Part shown: piece by piece, positions 1 through 11,672 of the stretch | Layout of the letters: every line of letters begins with the position of its first letter | Position numbering within the stretch: position 1 is the first letter of the stretch | DNA from: Candidatus Woesearchaeota archaeon | GTDB lineage: Archaea > Nanobdellota > Nanobdellia > Woesearchaeales > UBA525 | Reading direction: 5' to 3' | Length of the DNA: 19,556 nucleotides | Assembly (NCBI GenBank): GCA_013331575.1 | Contig: DUGD01000040.1 | Location: 1 to 19,556 of the forward strand | Position numbers and translations under genes: made by a program | Notes under the pieces: generated by a model | Databases searched by the model: none | What the model was told of the DNA's origin: nothing | Seen by the model: only the letters and a program-made list of their open reading frames with translations

Positions 1-714
1 GAACCATCCTGATTGCGGATCGCCGTAACGGTGATGTCCCCCCAGAAATAGCTTCCATCCCGCCGTAAGTAGCGCTTCTCGACACGGAATGCATCGATGG
101 CGCCCGAGGCCATTTGCTGCAGCAGTCTCCTCGAGGCTTCCCGGTCCTCGGGATGAGTGAGCTCCAGAGGGGTCTGAAATATGACCTCTTCCTGGCTCTC
201 ATACCCAAGCATTTCGAGGAAATGCCGGTTCACCTGAACCAGGCGGCCACTCGGATCCGACAAGGCTATGCCGACCTCCGCGTTGTTGAAAATCGCCTGA
301 AGACGAGCCTCGCTCTCACGTAGGGCCTGTTCGTTCCGCATCCTTTCTGATATATCGAAGACTACCCCAACCAGCGCGAGAATCGAGCCATCCTGATTGC
401 AGATCTCCGTGACCGAGATATCCACCCAAATATGACTTCCATCCCGCTTTAAGTAACGCTTCTCCATACGAAAGGAGTCGATAGCGCCCGAAACCATCTC
501 CAGCATAACCTTGCGGCAGGCCTCCCGGTCTTCCGGATGGGTAATATCCAGAGTACTCTTGCTCAATAGTTCTTCCTTACTATCGTACCCCAACATTTCC
601 ACCAGCTGCCGATTAACCTGAACCAGGTGGCCTTCCGGATCCGTTAAGGCTATGCCGATCGCCGCATTGTTGAAAATGGCCTGAAGATGGGCTTCGCTTT
701 CTCTCAGGGCTTTT
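1..714 (-). repeat. Tandem duplication of the PAS4/PAS5 coding unit
   Basis: Bases 1 to about 330 and 385 to about 714 are diverged copies offset by exactly 384 nt (128 codons). For example CCATCCTGATTGC occurs at 4 and again at 388. Both copies encode the phrases LQAIFNNA, GYxSxEE, THPEDREA, SGAID and EKRYLxRDGS. This is an in-frame domain duplication within the sensor gene. The left copy is cut by the window edge. Confidence 0.85.
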
Positions 715-1913
715 TCGGCGAGTTTTCTCTCCGTGATGTCGGTAAACAGTCCGCAAAGTCCCTTTGGACTGCCATCCCGGGCGAAAATGGGGACCTTGGT
801 GGTAAAATATATCCGGTCATCGTCCAGCCGCAGACGCTCCTCGGTGACCACCACCTTACCGGACTCGATTGTCTGCATGTCATCCCGGTGGATATTTTCG
901 GCAATTTCCCGGGGATAAAGATCGAAGGGAGTCTTACCGATTATCTCCTCGCTGCTTTTCCCGATTACCTCAGCGGCCTTGCGATTGACCAGCAGGTAGC
1001 GGTCCTGGAAGTCCTTGACCACGACCCCCGAGGTCAGGTTGTCCAGCAGGGTCTGGGTCAGCTCCTGCCTTTCCCGCAGGGCCTCCTCGGCCAGCTTGCG
1101 CCCGGTAGTCACCTCGCTGTAGAATATGATCCCGCCGATGCCTCCATCTGTCTCGTACCACGGACGGCACTCCCAGCGGTTATAGACGAGCGATCCGTCG
1201 AGGCGCAAAAACTGGTCCTCCTCCATTCTTTCCACCGCCCCGGCCAGCACCCGCTGGTAAACCTCTTTCATCCGCTGCGGGGTTTCGGGAAAAATCTCAT
1301 CGTGATGCAAACCGATAATTTCCTTGCCGTTAATGGCATACTCGGTAAGAAAAACATCGCTGACCATGATAAAGCGCAGCCCGGTGTCTAATACGGCGAT
1401 CGCGCTGGGGTTATATTTGAGGATGTACCGGAAACGTTCCTCGCTGGCCTGAAGGGTCTCGAGCGACAGCCTGAGTCCGGTGATGTCCTCAATCATCGTT
1501 AACAGGTACATATCTTTACGCGCCTTGACCAAAATCATATTCACCAAGCCAATGAAGGTCGAACCATCCTTGGCCCTGAGCGAGACCTCGTGATTACGGA
1601 CGAATCCATCGCGCCTCACTTTTTCCAGCAGCTCTTCCCGGTCCCGCGGAGACTGATAAAATTCAGCCGCATTGCGCTTCTGCAGTTCCTCCAGCGTGTA
1701 GCCGATTTTGTCCGTAATCGCCTGGTTGATCGAGATTACCTTACCTTCCAAGGTCGTCAGCGCAATGCCGGCCGGGGAATGCTCAAAAATAGCCCGCATG
1801 CGCTCATTGGTTTCGCGCAGCTCCTGTTCGGTGCGGCCCCTTTTTTCAAGCTCGGCCTCGAGTTCGCTTATCCTTTTCTCGAGTTCCTCGCAGGAGGGTT
1901 TCATTCCACTCAT
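1..1913 (-). CDS. Multi-PAS sensor protein, probably a histidine kinase or cyclase (C-terminus outside window)
   Basis: The minus-strand frame is open from ATG 1913 to the left edge (637 residues, no stop), so the output domain is missing. I see a short coiled coil (about residues 9-37) followed by five PAS domains: about 40-150, 154-270, 278-400, 402-527 and 530-637. Several end in the typical PAC/linker pattern, for example DITERKLAEKALRESE. PAS sensors read small ligands, redox state or light and pass the signal to a kinase, GGDEF or similar domain; which one is not visible. There is no transmembrane segment in the visible part. ATG 1913 is chosen because GGAG lies 8 nt upstream; in-frame ATGs at 1919 and 1961 are alternatives. 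Arginine codons CGG and AGG and leucine CTG are common, unlike the archaeal genes to the right, so the gene looks bacterial. Confidence 0.85.
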   Translation of the reverse strand, partial: MSGMKPSCEELEKRISELEAELEKRGRTEQELRETNERMRAIFEHSPAGIALTTLEGKVISINQAITDKIGYTLEELQKRNAAEFYQSPRDREELLEKVRRDGFVRNHEVSLRAKDGSTFIGLVNMILVKARKDMYLLTMIEDITGLRLSLETLQASEERFRYILKYNPSAIAVLDTGLRFIMVSDVFLTEYAINGKEIIGLHHDEIFPETPQRMKEVYQRVLAGAVERMEEDQFLRLDGSLVYNRWECRPWYETDGGIGGIIFYSEVTTGRKLAEEALRERQELTQTLLDNLTSGVVVKDFQDRYLLVNRKAAEVIGKSSEEIIGKTPFDLYPREIAENIHRDDMQTIESGKVVVTEERLRLDDDRIYFTTKVPIFARDGSPKGLCGLFTDITERKLAEKALRESEAHLQAIFNNAAIGIALTDPEGHLVQVNRQLVEMLGYDSKEELLSKSTLDITHPEDREACRKVMLEMVSGAIDSFRMEKRYLKRDGSHIWVDISVTEICNQDGSILALVGVVFDISERMRNEQALRESEARLQAIFNNAEVGIALSDPSGRLVQVNRHFLEMLGYESQEEVIFQTPLELTHPEDREASRRLLQQMASGAIDAFRVEKRYLRRDGSYFWGDITVTAIRNQDG

Positions 1914-2024
1914 CTTCATCTCTCCGGTGAACTTTGAGAAGCTAAGCTCAATGTTTGACATAATATATATTTAATCCGGACATGCGCAACCCGAAATATT
2001 GCGCTTCGCAATAGCTGTCCGGGG

Positions 2025-2061
2025 AAAAAAATCCCCGTCCGGTCTTGGCGACCGAACGGGG
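2025..2061 (-). terminator. Rho-independent terminator downstream of dnaK
   Basis: On the minus strand a 12-bp stem (arms at plus 2050-2061 and 2033-2044, one G-U-type mismatch, 5-nt loop) is followed by A and then seven T. It lies about 30 nt past the dnaK stop. A GC-rich stem plus T-tract is a bacterial intrinsic terminator. Terminators elsewhere in this window are plain T-rich tracts, as expected for archaea, so this supports a bacterial origin for the left end. Confidence 0.85.
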
Positions 2062-2093
2062 AAAAGGAATGCAGAGGATCAGAAAACTGTAAT

Positions 2094-3971
2094 TTATTTC
2101 TTGTTCTTGTCCTTATCCTCGTCCACCACCTCATAGTCCGCATCGACCACCTCGCCCTCGCCGGCCGAGGCCGGGCCGCTTCCAGGCTGGCTGTCGGCGG
2201 AGCCCTTCTGGCCGCCGCCTCCGGGCTGCGGCTGGGACTGGTAGAGCTTCTGGGCCGCGGTGTTCCAGATATTGGTCAGCTCCTCATTGACGCTCCTGAT
2301 CGCTCCGATATCGCCGCCCTTGAGCGACTCGCGGACCCGGTCCACCGCCGACTGGAGGCCGGAGCGGGTGCTCTCGTCCAGCTTGTCGCCCAACTCCTTG
2401 AGCTGCTTTTCGGTCTCATAGGCCATCTGGTCGGCCCGGTTGCGGGTTTCGACATCCTCTCTTTTCTGCTTGTCCTCCGAGGCATGGGACTCGGCATCCT
2501 TGACCATGCGGTCGATCTCCTGCTCCTTGAGCCCGCTGGAAGCCTCGATCCGGATTTTCTGTTCTTTGCTCGTGGCTTTGTCCTTGGCGGTCACATGCAG
2601 GATACCGTTGGCGTCGATATCGAAAATCACCTCGATCTGCGGTATTCCGCGCGGCGCCGGAGGAAGGCCGGTGAGCTGAAAACGGCCGATGGTCCGGTTG
2701 TCGATAGCCATCTGGCGCTCGCCCTGCAGGACATGGATTTCCACAGTAGTCTGGTTGTTCTCGGCGGTGGAGAAAATCTCGCTCTTCTTGGTCGGGATAG
2801 TGGTGTTGCGCTCGATGAGCTTCGTGAAGACGCCGCCGAGCGTCTCGATGCCCATGGAGAGGGGAGTGACGTCGAGAAGGAGGATGTCCTTCACTTCGCC
2901 GCCAAGGATTGCCGCTTGGATGGCCGCACCAAGGGCAACGACCTCGTCAGGGTTGACGCTCTTGTCGCCTTCCTTGCCCATGAGCTCCGTGACCATCGAC
3001 TGCACAGCAGGGATACGGGTGCTACCGCCAACGAAGATGACCTTGTCGATCTGCTCCTTCGTCAGGTTCGCATCCTTCATCGCTTTGATGGTCGGCTGCT
3101 TCAATCGCTCGATGATGGGAGCGATGAGCTGCTCGTATTTCGCGCGCGTGAGCTCCATGTTCACGTGTTTCGGGCCGTCCTTGCTCGCTGTGATGAACGG
3201 CAAGTTGATGGTCACCTTCGCTTTGCTCGAGAGCTCGATCTTCGCCTTCTCCGCCGCCTCAACGAGACGCTGGAGGGCAGTCTTGTCCTCACGCAAGTCG
3301 ATGCCGTACTGCTTCTTGAACTCGCTCGCGACATGATCCACGATAAGGGAGTCGATGTCGTCGCCGCCGAGGTGGTTGTCGCCGTTCGTCGATTTCACTT
3401 CGAAGACACCGTCTCCGAGCTCAAGGATACTGACGTCGAATGTTCCGCCGCCGAAGTCGAACACCAAGATGGTGTGCGCTTCTGTCTTGTCGAGGCCGTA
3501 CGCGAGGCTTGCCGCCGTCGGCTCGTTGATGATGCGCAGGACTTCGAGGCCTGCGATGACACCGGCGTCTTTCGTCGCTTGACGCTGTGCGTCCGTGAAG
3601 TATGCGGGCACGGTGATGACCGCGCGCTTGACTTCGCCGCCGAGGTATCCTTCGGCGTCTTTCTTGAGCTTTTGCAGCACCATCGCGCTAATTTCTTGCG
3701 GTGAGTACTCCTTGCCCCAGAGTTCGACCTTGAAATCCTCGCCCATGTGACGCTTGATACTGCGCACAGTATGCTCAGGGTTGCTGACAGCTTGGTTTTT
3801 TGCCACACGGCCGACCAGGCGTTCGCTGTCCTCAAGGACGCTCACTACGCTGGGCGTTGTGCGTTCTCCTTCCGCGCTGGGGATGATGACCGGCTTTCCG
3901 CCTTCCATCACTGCCACCGCGCTGAAGGTGGTGCCTAAATCTATGCCGATAATCTTGTTACTTTGTGCCAT
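2094..3971 (-). CDS. dnaK: Molecular chaperone DnaK (Hsp70), apparently a two-source hybrid
   Basis: This 625-residue protein is full length for DnaK. It has the phosphate-1 loop [13 protein letters not shown] (about 9-21), the NEPTAA segment, the phosphate-2 loop [11 protein letters not shown], the linker [11 protein letters not shown] (about 361-371), a substrate-binding domain and a Gly-rich tail ending in [14 protein letters not shown]. DnaK binds unfolded peptides in an ATP cycle driven by DnaJ and GrpE. The start ATG is preceded by GAGGTGA with 6 nt spacing, as in other archaeal genes here. It follows grpE and a small Cys-rich gene. Odd: none of the 14 Arg codons up to about residue 386 is CGG, AGA or AGG, whereas 6 of 13 after it are. 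The 3' side leads into a bacterial terminator and PAS gene, so the C-terminal third may belong to another genome. No dnaJ is present. Confidence 0.93.
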
Positions 3972-4074
3972 TGGGTGTCACCTCGGTGGTGTTTGTGGTT
4001 TTTGTAATTGGCCCGTTACCGGGTCGTTGGTTCTGTCGTTGGTAGCATGCCTTGATGGGCCGCTAGTACTATGA

Positions 4075-4561: not shown

Positions 4562-5203
4562 TCATTTCGCCACACTGACTTTCGCCGGACGAATTATCTT
4601 GCCGCCGCGTTGGTAGCCGGGTTGGAGCACCGTGACTATCGTCCCTCTCGGCACGCCCTCTTGCTGCACCATCATGAGCACTTCATGCATGCGCGGATTG
4701 AACGGGCCTGAACAATCTATAGCAGTGAGACCTTGGCTTTCGAGGAGGTGTTTGAGCTGGTCATGCAAGAGGAGGATTCCTTGGTAGAGATCCTCTCCGC
4801 GTACCGCGCCAGTATCATCTTTCGCGTGCTGGAGCGAGAGCTCGAAGGTATCTATGATGGGGAGGAGCGCTTTGAACAGGTTGTCTGTCGCGCCTGCGCG
4901 TTGTTCTTGCGCTTCGCGCTCTACGCGTTTTCTGTAGTTGTCGAATTCCGCCTGTATCCGTTGCGCGTGCGCGATGATATCCTGACGGTCATCGGTAGGG
5001 GATGGTACGCTTGGTGCATCAGTGGTTGTCGCGCCAAGCGTAGTACCATCATTTGCGGCAGCATCCGCATTCGTAGCACTATCAGCTGCGTCCGATGTCG
5101 CATCTGCTGCATCAGTTTGCGCATCAGCGCGCGATTCATCTAGGCATTCATCGCCCGCATTTGGCGGCACAGTATCATCGTTGTCGTGTCGTTTACGCAT
5201 CAT
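4562..5203 (-). CDS. grpE: Nucleotide exchange factor GrpE
   Basis: GrpE is the cofactor that releases ADP from DnaK. The N-terminal third (to about residue 70) is acidic, Ala/Asp/Thr-rich and probably disordered. It is followed by the long helix with the hallmark AEFDNYRKRVEREAQE (about 86-101), the four-helix region LLPIIDTFELSLQHA, and the C-terminal beta domain with FNPRMHEVLMMV and the ending GYQRGGKIIRPAKVSV. At about 213 residues it is slightly longer than typical because of the tail. The start is uncertain: GTG 5209, ATG 5203 and ATG 5200 are all in frame with no clear GGTGA site. A TATA box at 5278-5289 is consistent with any of them. It is the first gene of the grpE-dnaK operon and divergent from a winged-helix regulator. 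Confidence 0.95.
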   Translation of the reverse strand: MMRKRHDNDDTVPPNAGDECLDESRADAQTDAADATSDAADSATNADAAANDGTTLGATTTDAPSVPSPTDDRQDIIAHAQRIQAEFDNYRKRVEREAQEQRAGATDNLFKALLPIIDTFELSLQHAKDDTGAVRGEDLYQGILLLHDQLKHLLESQGLTAIDCSGPFNPRMHEVLMMVQQEGVPRGTIVTVLQPGYQRGGKIIRPAKVSVAK

Positions 5204-5277
5204 CGTCACTCAGCCATTCAGTTTACATGAATTCAATTCAGTTCATCTTAACTCAACGAAGTTGGTGTAACATCTAC

Positions 5278-5884: not shown

Positions 5885-6344
5885 GAGAACAGACCGCGAA
5901 GTTCACCGCACCACATAGATGCTTAGCAGAATAGGTTCTCAGCAAGGAACGCCCGCCAGCCTGAAGGCGCTCGACCCCGAGCACCACAACACCACCGGAC
6001 GCTGACACGCAATGTCGAGCGCCGGACCACCGAGGCCGGAGTCAGCAAGACGAACGGCAAGCGAGGTGGTCGCTTGCGGGCGTCAAAGAATGAAACATGC
6101 AGAGGGAGATACTCTACGCATAACACTAAAACTCAAAACTCTTAGCAATAATCTCTTCTCCTGCCGCGGTGGAACTATTGCTTGCGCAACACGTGTTTCG
6201 GCACTCGCAGTGGCGGGGGCCCATCCCCGCACTCGCGCCTTAGATATCGCACCAAGGCGGCAGTCGCATATCGGGGTCGTGCACTGTTTACCTAAGAATT
6301 CACCACAAGGTACATTTTTAAACCTCCCGTCAATCCCCAGAAAA
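5885..6344. other. 460-bp gene-free region rich in inverted repeats (possible structured RNA)
   Basis: No convincing protein is encoded here. Three strong inverted repeats are visible: GGCGCTCGA (5966-5974) with TCGAGCGCC (6015-6023), 9 bp perfect; GCAAGCGA (6057-6064) with TCGCTTGC (6070-6077), 8 bp perfect with a 5-nt loop; and GCGGGG (6213-6218) with CCCCGC (6225-6230), extended by AGT/ACT. GCACTCGC is repeated directly at 6201 and 6229. Because cbf5 appears leaderless, this is not its 5' leader, so a separate non-coding RNA is possible. I found no diagnostic SRP, RNase P, tRNA or box C/D motifs. Confidence 0.4.
6313..6322 (+). promoter_or_regulatory. TATA box of cbf5 (leaderless)
   Basis: CATTTTTAAA is centred about 27 bp before ATG 6345, the distance expected if transcription starts at the start codon. 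This decides the start and rules out the long in-frame upstream extension. Confidence 0.65.
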
Positions 6345-7355
6345 ATGGGGCTTTTACCATTCGAACGCCGCGATAAGCAGACCCTCGTGCGCACGCAAGC
6401 GGAGACTTCGCCGAAATACGGCAAGCCACCCGAGACACGCACCACCGACGAACTCATCAAGAGCGGCATCGTCATCATCGACAAACCAGAGGGCCCGAGC
6501 TCGCACCAGGTCTCGGCGTACGTCAAACAGATACTCAAACTCGACAAGACAGGACACTCGGGAACGCTCGACCCTGGAGTCACCGGCGTCCTGCCTGTCG
6601 CGCTCGGGAATGGCACGCGCATCGTACAGAGCCTCCTCCCGGCAGGAAAAGAGTACGTCTGCCTCATGCACGTGCACCAAGAGGTTCCTGAGGAGAAGCT
6701 CCGCGCAGTCATCGCGCAATTCGTCGGTAAGATAAAGCAACTACCTCCCATCAAATCAGCGGTCAAGCGACAATGGCGCTATCGCAAGGTCTACTACATC
6801 GACATCCTCGATATCAAAGGACAGGATGTCCTCTTCGTCTGCGGCGTGCAAGCAGGCACCTACATCCGCAAGCTCTGCCATGACATGGGCGAGATGTTGG
6901 GTTGCGGCGCGCACATGGCGGAACTACGCCGCAGCAAGGCCGCGGGTTTCGTCGAGGCACAAGCCGTGACACTGCAAGACCTGGCGGATGCATTCCATTA
7001 CCACACGCAGGAGCATAACGAGGCACCGCTACGCAAGATGCTCCTGCCAATAGAAGCAGGAGTATCGCACCTGCCGAAGATATGGATCCAAGACAGCGCC
7101 ATAGACGCACTCTGCCACGGCATGCAACTCAAAGTACCGGGCATCGTACGCCTGGATAGCGATATCCAGATCGATGACCTGGTCGCGGTCATGACGCTCA
7201 AAGACGAGCTTGTCCTCGTCGGGAAAGCGCTCATCGCGAGCCGCCAGATGCTCGGAAGCAAAGGGATAGCGGTAAAGACAGAGCAAGTCTTCCTACCTCC
7301 CAGCACATACCCGAAGCAGGAACGGCAAGAGCAATCCGACGCGGTGAAACGATGA
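6345..7355 (+). CDS. cbf5: H/ACA RNA-guided tRNA/rRNA pseudouridine synthase Cbf5
   Basis: Cbf5 is the catalytic subunit of archaeal H/ACA ribonucleoproteins (with Nop10, L7Ae and Gar1) and converts uridine to pseudouridine in rRNA; it can also act on tRNA position 55. At 336 residues it has the usual archaeal length. Seen in sequence: an N-terminal DKCLD-like part, the TruB core with IVIIDKPEGPSSHQVSAYV, the catalytic loop TGHSGTLDPGVTGVLPVALG with Asp76, the segment KQLPPIKSAVKR, and the GTYIRKLCHDMGE motif. A C-terminal PUA domain (about 240-325) includes the DLVAVMTLKDELVLVGKA region. The open frame extends about 111 codons upstream, but the TATA spacing and homology support ATG 6345. The stop overlaps the next gene's ATG by 4 nt (ATGA), so the two are translationally coupled. 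Confidence 0.96.
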   Translation: MGLLPFERRDKQTLVRTQAETSPKYGKPPETRTTDELIKSGIVIIDKPEGPSSHQVSAYVKQILKLDKTGHSGTLDPGVTGVLPVALGNGTRIVQSLLPAGKEYVCLMHVHQEVPEEKLRAVIAQFVGKIKQLPPIKSAVKRQWRYRKVYYIDILDIKGQDVLFVCGVQAGTYIRKLCHDMGEMLGCGAHMAELRRSKAAGFVEAQAVTLQDLADAFHYHTQEHNEAPLRKMLLPIEAGVSHLPKIWIQDSAIDALCHGMQLKVPGIVRLDSDIQIDDLVAVMTLKDELVLVGKALIASRQMLGSKGIAVKTEQVFLPPSTYPKQERQEQSDAVKR

Positions 7356-8907: not shown

Positions 8908-9294
8908 TCACAATGCCCGCAGCATGCGCGCGAATTGCTCGCGGGTGATACGCGTCTCCGGCGCCCACAAATCAACGCGCGATTGCAAGCGCGCCATATC
9001 GCCCTGCTTGACGACTGTCTTGAACATCGACAATGAGTGCTTGACGCGTTCGACGACCGACGCGACATCATGTTCGATTATGGCGAGCGCGTCGCGCAAC
9101 TGGGCGACCTCAACAGCGATATCCGCCATCGTGCGATCGAACTCCTCATGCGTATGGAAGACATCCTGTCGCACCGTTATCTCTGCGCGCTCGGTGCGCT
9201 GCACCCGTTCCGATACGCGATCGACATACGCGGGGTCAAGAGGTAGCATACCGGCTCCCGGGTGGACCTCTGATGGCTGACCGCCTTGTGACAT
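8908..9294 (-). CDS. Hypothetical small coiled-coil protein, divergent from a large coiled-coil gene
   Basis: This 128-residue protein is not recognised. After a Gly/Pro-rich start (about 1-18) it is nearly all helix, with coiled-coil character from DPAYVDRVSERVQRTERAEI through DIAVEVAQLRDALAIIEHDV and VASVVERVKHSLSMFKTVVK (about 20-100). It ends in a short motif WAPETRITREQFARMLRAL (about 109-127) that looks like a small capping domain. There is no membrane span, signal peptide or Cys. ATG 9294 is the most upstream ATG; GGCGGAT precedes it. It is divergent from the 743-residue coiled-coil gene, and both can use the AT-rich element at 9354-9366, so the two products may be co-regulated partners. 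Confidence 0.7.
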   Translation of the reverse strand: MSQGGQPSEVHPGAGMLPLDPAYVDRVSERVQRTERAEITVRQDVFHTHEEFDRTMADIAVEVAQLRDALAIIEHDVASVVERVKHSLSMFKTVVKQGDMARLQSRVDLWAPETRITREQFARMLRAL

Positions 9295-9353
9295 ATCCGC
9301 CCATCTACGTCCCCCTCATCAAAAACCCTTCGTTCTCTCCGCAGAATAGTGAC

Positions 9354-9366
9354 GAAAAATATATAA
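9354..9366. promoter_or_regulatory. Shared bidirectional TATA element for the coiled-coil gene pair
   Basis: GAAAAATATATAAGG (around 9354-9366) is a good TATA box in both orientations and the only AT-rich element between the two divergent genes. Starts would fall near 9385 (plus) and 9330 (minus), leaving leaders of about 55 and 40 nt. Confidence 0.5.
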
Positions 9367-9440
9367 GGACTCCGACGTGGTTTGCATGGTGTGGACCGGG
9401 GAGCGCTCCGAGACACCATCAAGGAGAAAGAGGGGGGAGA

Positions 9441-11672
9441 ATGAGCGACTTTGATCTGACACCGCCATCGCTGCCTGGCGAAGCGCCCGTGAAACGACGC
9501 GGATTCTTCGGCAAGCTATTCAGGAAAGATAGCAATGACGACCCGCAACAGCACTATTCGACACAAGCTCCTAGCGACCCCAAAGACTCTGACGCACCAA
9601 CACAACTCCCCGCGACAGAGTTCGGCAGCGCACCAGACCCTACAGGCATCAGTGGATCGACCTCTACCCCAAATATCGATGAGATCAGGCGTAAGCTCGG
9701 CATCGATACCGAACAGAACAGCCTACCTGTGAAGCAAGGCGCCTACCAGGATGATGATCATCATGAGAACAACAGCGTAGCGCAGCCAGCGGCGGATTCG
9801 ACGGTGAACGTCGGCGATTGGACGCAAGACGAAAGCGCCTCCACCATCACACCGATCACTGCGTCTGCGGCGACGCCATGGAACAACGAGATATCGCTCG
9901 ACGATGTCGCGTCGCAATCATTGCAAACGCCTATTGAAAAGGAAGAACAAGCACAATCCACCCATCCAGCGGCAGACACCGGTAGCGAACACAGCGATGC
10001 AAAAAGCGCTGTCGCAGATACTGCAGACCAGAGCACCACACCGCCAGCCGCGCACCAGGAAGACATGGCAGTGCCGCTTGTCATCGAAGGGACGCCTAAG
10101 CACCACGAACTCATCGAGCAGCACCTCGCGACGCTCAACCGGCAGCACGAAGAGATCGAGAAGAGACTCTCGGAGATAACGAACGAATCACCGCGACTCC
10201 CGGAATGGAAACTTCAAGAGCGGGAAGTGACCCCGGATAAGTATTTCTTCCTACGCAACGGCCAACCCCTACGGTCGCTCCCCGAGCTCGCCGACGCGCT
10301 CGAGTACATCGATGACATCACCTTCGAACACCATGTGAATGAGTACCGCAACGATTTCGCGAGTTGGGTACGCGATGCGCTTGGAAACCAGGAGCTCGCC
10401 ACACAGCTCCTCTCCGCGGAGAATCGCGCCGCGATGCTGCGTGAACTCCTCAGCCATAAACAGGCTGTCGCGAAAGGCGCCATCAAGGAGCACCGCGAGC
10501 TGCAGAAGACCATCGCCAAACGCAAAGAGGCGGTCCTTACGCTCCTCGAAGCCGAGAAAGAGATAGCCGAGCTCCAACGCAAAGTGACGCAGAAGAGCAA
10601 TGAGCTGATGGGCGAACGCAAGCGCAGCGCCAAGATGATCAAGGAACGCCTCGACGCGGAAGTGGAACGGCGACTCAAAGCTGAACGGAACGCGATGCTC
10701 AAAGCGCGCGGCGATCTCGCAACCGCCAAGCGGGAGTACGATGCGAAACTGAAAAACGTCGATGCGAAAGAGAAAGCGTTAGCGCAGCGCGAGAAACGCG
10801 TCATGATCGACGAGACAGAAGCGCGCAAGGATATCGAGATGGTCTCGCGCATGAAGCAGGAGATCGAGCCGATGCTGCGCGATGCCGCGAAAGTGAAAGC
10901 GGATATGGAGATAGCGAAGCGGGCCGAAACGTCCGCGAAGAGCATGCTTGCGCAAGTCCAGACGACCGAAGCGACGATCACCCGCAAGGAGGAGGCGCTC
11001 CGCATAAGAGAGAAGAAAGTCGCGGAGGACATAACGAAAGCATCGACGATGCGCGAGGAGCTCCGTGCGCTCAAGGCAGACCTCGATGCGCGTGAGACGG
11101 CAGTCCGCAAGACCGAAGTCGATGCGAAGAACATGCTTGCCGACGCGATGTCGCGACGCGATGCGGCCCTCACCGCAGAACGGACCACGCGCGAACGCAT
11201 CAACGCAGAGACGAAAAGGCTCACCGCACTCAAGGCGAAGATCGAGAAGGAGCTCGCGAAGACGATAGACCAGAAAGAGAAGGTTACCCGTGCCGTAGGC
11301 TTACGCAAGGAGTACGCCGAGGCGCTCGGGAGCGCGAAACGCGGCATCACCGCGGAGCGGGAGCGCTTGGAGAGCGAAGGGTACGCGTCGTTCATCAAGG
11401 AACGCGTGGAGACCACCCCCGCAGGGCAAAGGATAGAAGAGAACGCCGAAGACGCGCTCAAGGCGAAACACGGCGACATCTATGCGAAGGTCGAATCCTG
11501 CAGGCAAGCGCTCGAGACGGGCGACCTCGAGAAAGCGAAGACGGCGTACAAGGAACTGCGGGAGGACTATGTCCGCGCGAAGCTCGGAGCGACCGAGAAG
11601 GAGGCGCTCTACAACGACATCCGCGAGATCTACGACGACATCCACCTGATGATGCTCGCGAAACAGCAGTAG
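9441..11672 (+). CDS. Large coiled-coil protein with a DUF5752-like domain
   Basis: At 743 residues this is the largest complete gene. Visible parts: an N-terminal basic-hydrophobic motif KRRGFFGKLFRK (about 18-29); an acidic Ser/Thr/Asp-rich, probably disordered stretch to about 215; a helical lead-in; a compact domain (about 262-325) with YFFLRNGQPLRSLPELADAL, EHHVNEYRNDFASWVRDALG and LATQLL, which resembles from memory the DUF5752-type domain; a long Lys/Arg/Glu/Ala coiled coil (about 335-655); and a C-terminal helical-repeat-like unit (about 670-743). There is no Walker motif, so it is not an SMC ATPase, and no membrane span. It is probably a structural or scaffold protein. ATG 9441 is chosen because of the strong GGGGGGAG site just upstream; an in-frame start at 9273 would precede the TATA box. 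Confidence 0.8.
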   Translation: MSDFDLTPPSLPGEAPVKRRGFFGKLFRKDSNDDPQQHYSTQAPSDPKDSDAPTQLPATEFGSAPDPTGISGSTSTPNIDEIRRKLGIDTEQNSLPVKQGAYQDDDHHENNSVAQPAADSTVNVGDWTQDESASTITPITASAATPWNNEISLDDVASQSLQTPIEKEEQAQSTHPAADTGSEHSDAKSAVADTADQSTTPPAAHQEDMAVPLVIEGTPKHHELIEQHLATLNRQHEEIEKRLSEITNESPRLPEWKLQEREVTPDKYFFLRNGQPLRSLPELADALEYIDDITFEHHVNEYRNDFASWVRDALGNQELATQLLSAENRAAMLRELLSHKQAVAKGAIKEHRELQKTIAKRKEAVLTLLEAEKEIAELQRKVTQKSNELMGERKRSAKMIKERLDAEVERRLKAERNAMLKARGDLATAKREYDAKLKNVDAKEKALAQREKRVMIDETEARKDIEMVSRMKQEIEPMLRDAAKVKADMEIAKRAETSAKSMLAQVQTTEATITRKEEALRIREKKVAEDITKASTMREELRALKADLDARETAVRKTEVDAKNMLADAMSRRDAALTAERTTRERINAETKRLTALKAKIEKELAKTIDQKEKVTRAVGLRKEYAEALGSAKRGITAERERLESEGYASFIKERVETTPAGQRIEENAEDALKAKHGDIYAKVESCRQALETGDLEKAKTAYKELREDYVRAKLGATEKEALYNDIREIYDDIHLMMLAKQQ

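Follow-up and report, generated by a model that had tools for sequence, protein, structure and literature searches.

A dnaK gene that is archaeal at its 5′ end and bacterial at its 3′ end on one contig of a Woesearchaeota draft genome, most likely through a misjoin

Results

A complete dnaK reading frame between bacterial-type and archaeal-type genes

The DNA analyzed here, which we call the window, spans all 19,556 bases of contig C19 (DUGD01000040.1) of an archaeal draft genome, G000. The draft comprises 1,625,642 bases in 99 contigs and is rated 74.59% complete and 1.45% contaminated. On its minus strand, at 2094-3971, lies a dnaK gene with an open reading frame of 625 residues. The predicted protein matches the HSP70 profile over its whole length (PF00012, profile positions 1-599 of 599, 809.6 bits). 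Upstream of dnaK, on the same strand, is grpE (4562-5209, PF01025), and the two genes are also neighbors in five archaeal relatives (L144 to L148).

The rest of the right part encodes proteins with TruB/DKCLD/PUA domains, as in a Cbf5-type pseudouridine synthase, as well as Rpb6, a prolyl-tRNA synthetase (ProRS), and two RNase PH proteins accompanied by a KH-domain protein, as in the exosome. These domains are those of archaeal housekeeping proteins. The order Cbf5, HTH, grpE, dnaK is the same as in the same-genus genome G002. Two genes in this part have features of their own. The listed Cbf5-type frame (6012-7355) carries about 110 extra residues before its DKCLD/TruB domains, and its true start is probably further in. 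The gene at 9273-11672 encodes a charged, coiled-coil-like protein of 799 residues with only a marginal match to DUF5752.

On the other side of dnaK, the contig ends inside a gene for a multi-PAS sensor histidine kinase of bacterial type. Its N-terminal part, with five PAS stretches, occupies 1-1961 on the minus strand and runs off the contig end. The spacer between the two genes (1962-2093) holds a single hairpin-plus-T-run terminator on the minus strand at 2062-2032, with 13 pairs in its stem, compared to 0.1 such terminators expected in shuffled sequence. A first-pass annotation, made from the letters of the window, had described a five-PAS sensor and an intrinsic terminator on the left and archaeal genes on the right, and all three are recovered here. 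It had also proposed that dnaK itself contains a join between bacterial and archaeal sequence at about 2690-2820.

The two halves of DnaK have different relatives

We searched the two halves of the protein separately against a database of about 5.8 billion sequences. In each search, about 8000 candidates sharing the most words with the query were scored and the best 120 were listed. For residues 1-380, the closest of the matches listed is an archaeal-type DnaK (P0121; 90% identity over 99% of the query), and the listed matches that bear an organism name are from Woesearchaeota, Nanoarchaeota or Euryarchaeota. For residues 405-625, the closest non-self match listed is the DnaK of Candidatus Glassbacteria GWA2_58_10 (P0002), at 100% identity. 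Pairwise alignment extends this identity to residues 385-625 (241 of 241), and the alignment with P0121 collapses past about residue 396.

Comparison with complete genes gives the same division. We used the DnaK of a bacterial genome described below (G068) and 19 archaeal DnaKs, which are the 20 loci returned by a genome search minus that of G000 itself; further matches came without a locus. Residues 1-384 of the window protein are identical to G068 at 258 of 384 positions (67%) and to an archaeon at up to 322. For residues 385-625 the relationship is reversed: all 241 positions are identical in G068, and at most 123 in any of the 19 archaeal proteins. Three of these (L003, L004 and L009) come from the same genus and have archaeal C-terminal halves, in which 105-107 of the 241 residues agree with the window.

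In maximum-likelihood trees built from 41 sequences, among them 14 of 80 bacterial loci and 6 of the 239 proteins found, the halves separate with high support. The N-terminal half groups with the archaeal P0121 and P0122 and with same-genus L003 (support 99), and the C-terminal half groups with P0002, G068 and P0006 (support 100). One sequence labeled simply “archaeon” (P0004, from a TPA metagenome-assembled genome) groups with the Glassbacteria-type DnaKs in both trees; it is probably mislabeled or from a contaminating contig.

The window protein thus resembles a Woesearchaeota/Nanoarchaeota-type DnaK (Hsp70) over residues 1-384 but is non-archaeal over residues 398-625. Conversely, it is identical to the GWA2_58_10 protein over residues 385-625 but only 67% identical over the first 384, as counted against the near-identical G068 DnaK. 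No second mosaic DnaK appeared among the matches listed, with at most 8000 candidates scored per search, and the mosaic forms a single-member cluster on one contig.

The bacterial segment has its own locus in another genome

To place the left part at the DNA level, we compared window 1-2820 with 395 genomes sampled from the phylum to which a Gemmatimonadetes record belongs. Some match was present in 353 of them, but G068 alone matches 6-2820, at 99% identity. The next-best genomes match at 78% over 721 bases and 80% over 611 bases, both within dnaK. G068 probably belongs to the Glassbacteria group, because its DnaK is nearly identical to P0002 (642 of 644 residues, counted from the bacterial start). 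On a 41,732-base contig of this genome (C169), a complete dnaK is followed by the same PAS kinase, here as an open reading frame of 1172 residues (L143) with a short stretch read as N. The foreign segment therefore has a genome context of its own elsewhere.

Next to the join, the window and G068 are indistinguishable: there is no mismatch in 593 bases at 2224-2816, nor in the 132 bases of the spacer that carries the terminator. Mismatches number 19 in 2715 bases at 102-2816 and 39 in 2816 over the entire left part. Past the join, an ungapped comparison of 2817-3974 gives 494 mismatches in 1158 bases.

Two patches of the otherwise nearly identical PAS gene differ from G068 at many positions (20 of the 101 bases in 1-101 and 16 of the 69 in 1140-1208), perhaps through strain variation or as a second small mosaic. 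We looked for their source in other repeats of the PAS gene, in six other bacterial loci and in 19 stretches of G000, and in each case the same place in G068 remained the best match. A homologous protein (P0240, 1156 residues) shows 100% identity across 98% of the G068 query and is therefore presumably no closer to the variant patches of the window. The exact source strain was not found among the genomes searched. Window 1-2820 matched five of six bacterial genomes compared separately, with dnaK at 67-80% and one 32-base match elsewhere; none was nearly identical over the length. A near-match search of the same segment against a phage collection gave no match.

The join lies within 36 bases of dnaK

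Rightward from 2224, the window departs from G068 for the first time at base 2817. In the other direction, base 2780 sets both the window and G068 apart from all 19 archaeal relatives, which have CAG, CAA or AAA in place of GAG. The corresponding residue 398 is glutamate in the window and the bacterium, and is glutamine in 18 and lysine in one of the archaeal proteins. Together, these two positions confine the join to 2781-2816, which narrows the interval of the first-pass annotation. The affected codons, residues 386-397, lie about 20 residues past the motif DILLLDV (362-368), which we take to be the interdomain linker.

The gene can accordingly be divided into an archaeal 5′ part (2817-3971, residues 1-385), a join interval that is identical to G068 and clearly assignable to neither source, and a bacterial 3′ part (2094-2780, residues 398-625 and the stop codon). 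The stretch possibly common to both sources at the join is at most 36 identical bases. Near this point, the 19 archaeal relatives have at most 18 consecutive bases in common with G068, and the same-genus L003, L004 and L009 have 12, 14 and 14.

Codon choice changes at the same place. As the first-pass annotation had noted for arginine, CGG, AGA and AGG account for none of the 14 codons up to residue 388 and for 6 of 13 from residue 419 (at residues 426, 474, 504, 512, 545 and 559). The one-sided hypergeometric chance of this split is about 0.006, with a boundary picked after the fact. Other amino acids change as well: CAA makes up 6 of 13 glutamine codons up to residue 352 and none of 17 from residue 407, and the share of GCC among alanine codons rises from 5 of 35 (up to residue 354) to 12 of 19 (from residue 403).

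We also located the change with the boundary left free, using a log-likelihood ratio between codon tables trained on G068 and on G000 that considers synonymous choice only. The G068 table was built from eight reading frames of one contig, with the PAS kinase included and dnaK left out, and the G000 table from 139 mechanically chosen reading frames in 19 stretches. The best change point falls after residue 389, and its score was reached by none of 2000 codon shuffles. No such switch is seen in the dnaK of G068 or in that of six archaeal relatives (of the 19 aligned); in these genes 479 to 2000 of 2000 shuffles reach the observed value.

The draft genome gives no match to an archaeal 3′ end of dnaK or to dnaJ

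Among eight archaeal relatives (G001-G008), all have a DnaJ_C match. In the six that carry both genes on one contig (G001, G002, G004, G005, G006 and G007), the DnaJ_C domain starts 0.4-1.2 kb past the end of dnaK on the same strand. At the corresponding place, the window contains the bacterial spacer and PAS kinase, and G000 as a whole has no DnaJ_C match. As this draft is only 74.6% complete, the missing dnaJ is weak evidence by itself. A search of G000 with the archaeal P0121 at E values up to 10 returned only the window locus and no second piece of dnaK. Likewise, 20 kb around the bacterial locus of G068 matched G000 only in the window. As far as the join, the contig thus resembles ordinary archaeal DNA, and beyond it comes whatever follows there in the bacterium.

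The dnaK gene is also interrupted in other drafts. It was matched in 52 of 58 genomes, a tally that includes G000; of the 51 others, 7 have a split or partial dnaK (G007, G014, G021, G035, G047, G050 and G051). In six of these seven, a dnaK piece begins within 10 bases of the first base of a contig. This pattern suggests that dnaK is a hard spot, and a recurrent break, for short-read assembly.

Discussion

The first-pass annotation had proposed comparing the two halves of DnaK separately and had held that a shared set of closest relatives would speak against a join. We find that the halves differ in their best matches and in their tree positions, and that the left part has a bacterial source at the DNA level. 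We conclude, with a probability of roughly 0.92, that the contig is chimeric: its first 2.8 kb come from an unrelated bacterium and were joined to archaeal DNA inside dnaK by an error of assembly or library preparation.

That the junction arose in the laboratory or the computer rather than in a cell is inferred, and the main alternative, which we regard as unlikely, is a real and very recent transfer. In that case, the 3′ part of a Glassbacteria-type dnaK, the terminator and the PAS kinase would have recombined into an archaeal chromosome, producing a mosaic chaperone and displacing dnaJ. The preserved frame and open fusion gene fit such an event, although a join at homologous codons would keep the frame in any case. 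So does the absence of a dnaJ match from G000, and so does the shortness of the shared stretch at the join, which is atypical of a crossover in large-k assembly. A short shared stretch would, however, presumably make recombination in a cell no easier. Against a transfer stands, above all, the absence of any mismatch in 593 bases and in a non-coding spacer, which would make the event almost contemporary with sampling. Moreover, the left part retains bacterial codon use and reaches the contig end without archaeal DNA resuming, so the far flank of the foreign segment lies beyond the contig. The fusion is represented by one sequence on one contig among the candidates scored, and three relatives from the same genus have archaeal C-terminal halves. 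Still slightly less probable, in our estimation, is the full picture that a transfer would imply: a living archaeon with an in-frame inter-domain dnaK fusion, acquired too recently for substitutions to have accumulated near the join, and with a bacterial PAS kinase standing where dnaJ would be.

Two further explanations are already contradicted by the data, and we give them almost no credence. The genome might instead be that of a bacterium carrying transferred archaeal genes, and the contig does hold bacterial DNA. Yet the right part has its genes in the same order as the same-genus archaeal G002 and carries archaeal-type housekeeping genes, and the bacterial parent has a locus of its own. 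Alternatively, there might be no join at all, only a single archaeal dnaK with a fast-evolving and codon-biased C-terminal half. C-terminal parts of DnaK do diverge faster, and mean identity to archaeal proteins drops along the gene, but this cannot account for a half that is identical to a bacterium at 241 of 241 residues and differs at 19 of 2715 DNA bases.

A misjoin therefore remains strongly favored, in agreement with the first-pass annotation, which had preferred an assembly crossover to a genuine mosaic gene. In such a misjoin, DNA of a Woesearchaeota/Nanoarchaeota-like archaeon and of a bacterium of the Glassbacteria type, either as sequencing reads or as a chimeric molecule in the library, would have been connected within a short, conserved part of dnaK that lies directly beyond the linker to the substrate-binding domain. 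The DNA to the right of about 2816 is archaeal. To the left of about 2781, the 3′ part of dnaK, the terminator and the PAS kinase are bacterial, and the archaeon's own dnaK 3′ end and dnaJ would have been omitted from the draft.

With at most 36 bases, the shareable stretch is short for a large-k assembler and at odds with a simple crossover at a long k-mer. Assembly at low k, scaffolding or a chimeric molecule in the library might each have produced the join. Passages of a 2016 aquifer study place Glassbacteria among newly named groups and describe 33 separate IDBA-UD assemblies with k from 40 (PMC5079060).

GC content is the same on either side of the join (0.559 and 0.560), so composition-based binning would probably miss it, and the completeness and contamination values of the draft give no warning of it. 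Chimerism in metagenome-assembled genomes is the problem that GUNC, as presented in PMC8201837, addresses. Like other chimeric contigs in such genomes, this one brings two lineages together in one fragmented draft. Here, however, the junction is intragenic and in frame, and yields a plausible full-length DnaK.

The half-archaeal, half-bacterial dnaK should thus most likely not be taken as biology, and its main significance is for quality control. A clean fused DnaK of 625 residues may pass in databases as archaeal and could be quoted as a case of recombination between domains, and the sensor fragment of 653 residues would count as an archaeal signaling protein. The case also shows that codon preference changing within one gene, when noticed by eye, can pinpoint a misjoin to within a few dozen bases. 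If the fusion were real after all, it would represent a rare example of inter-domain gene transfer at the present day, and one inside a core chaperone.
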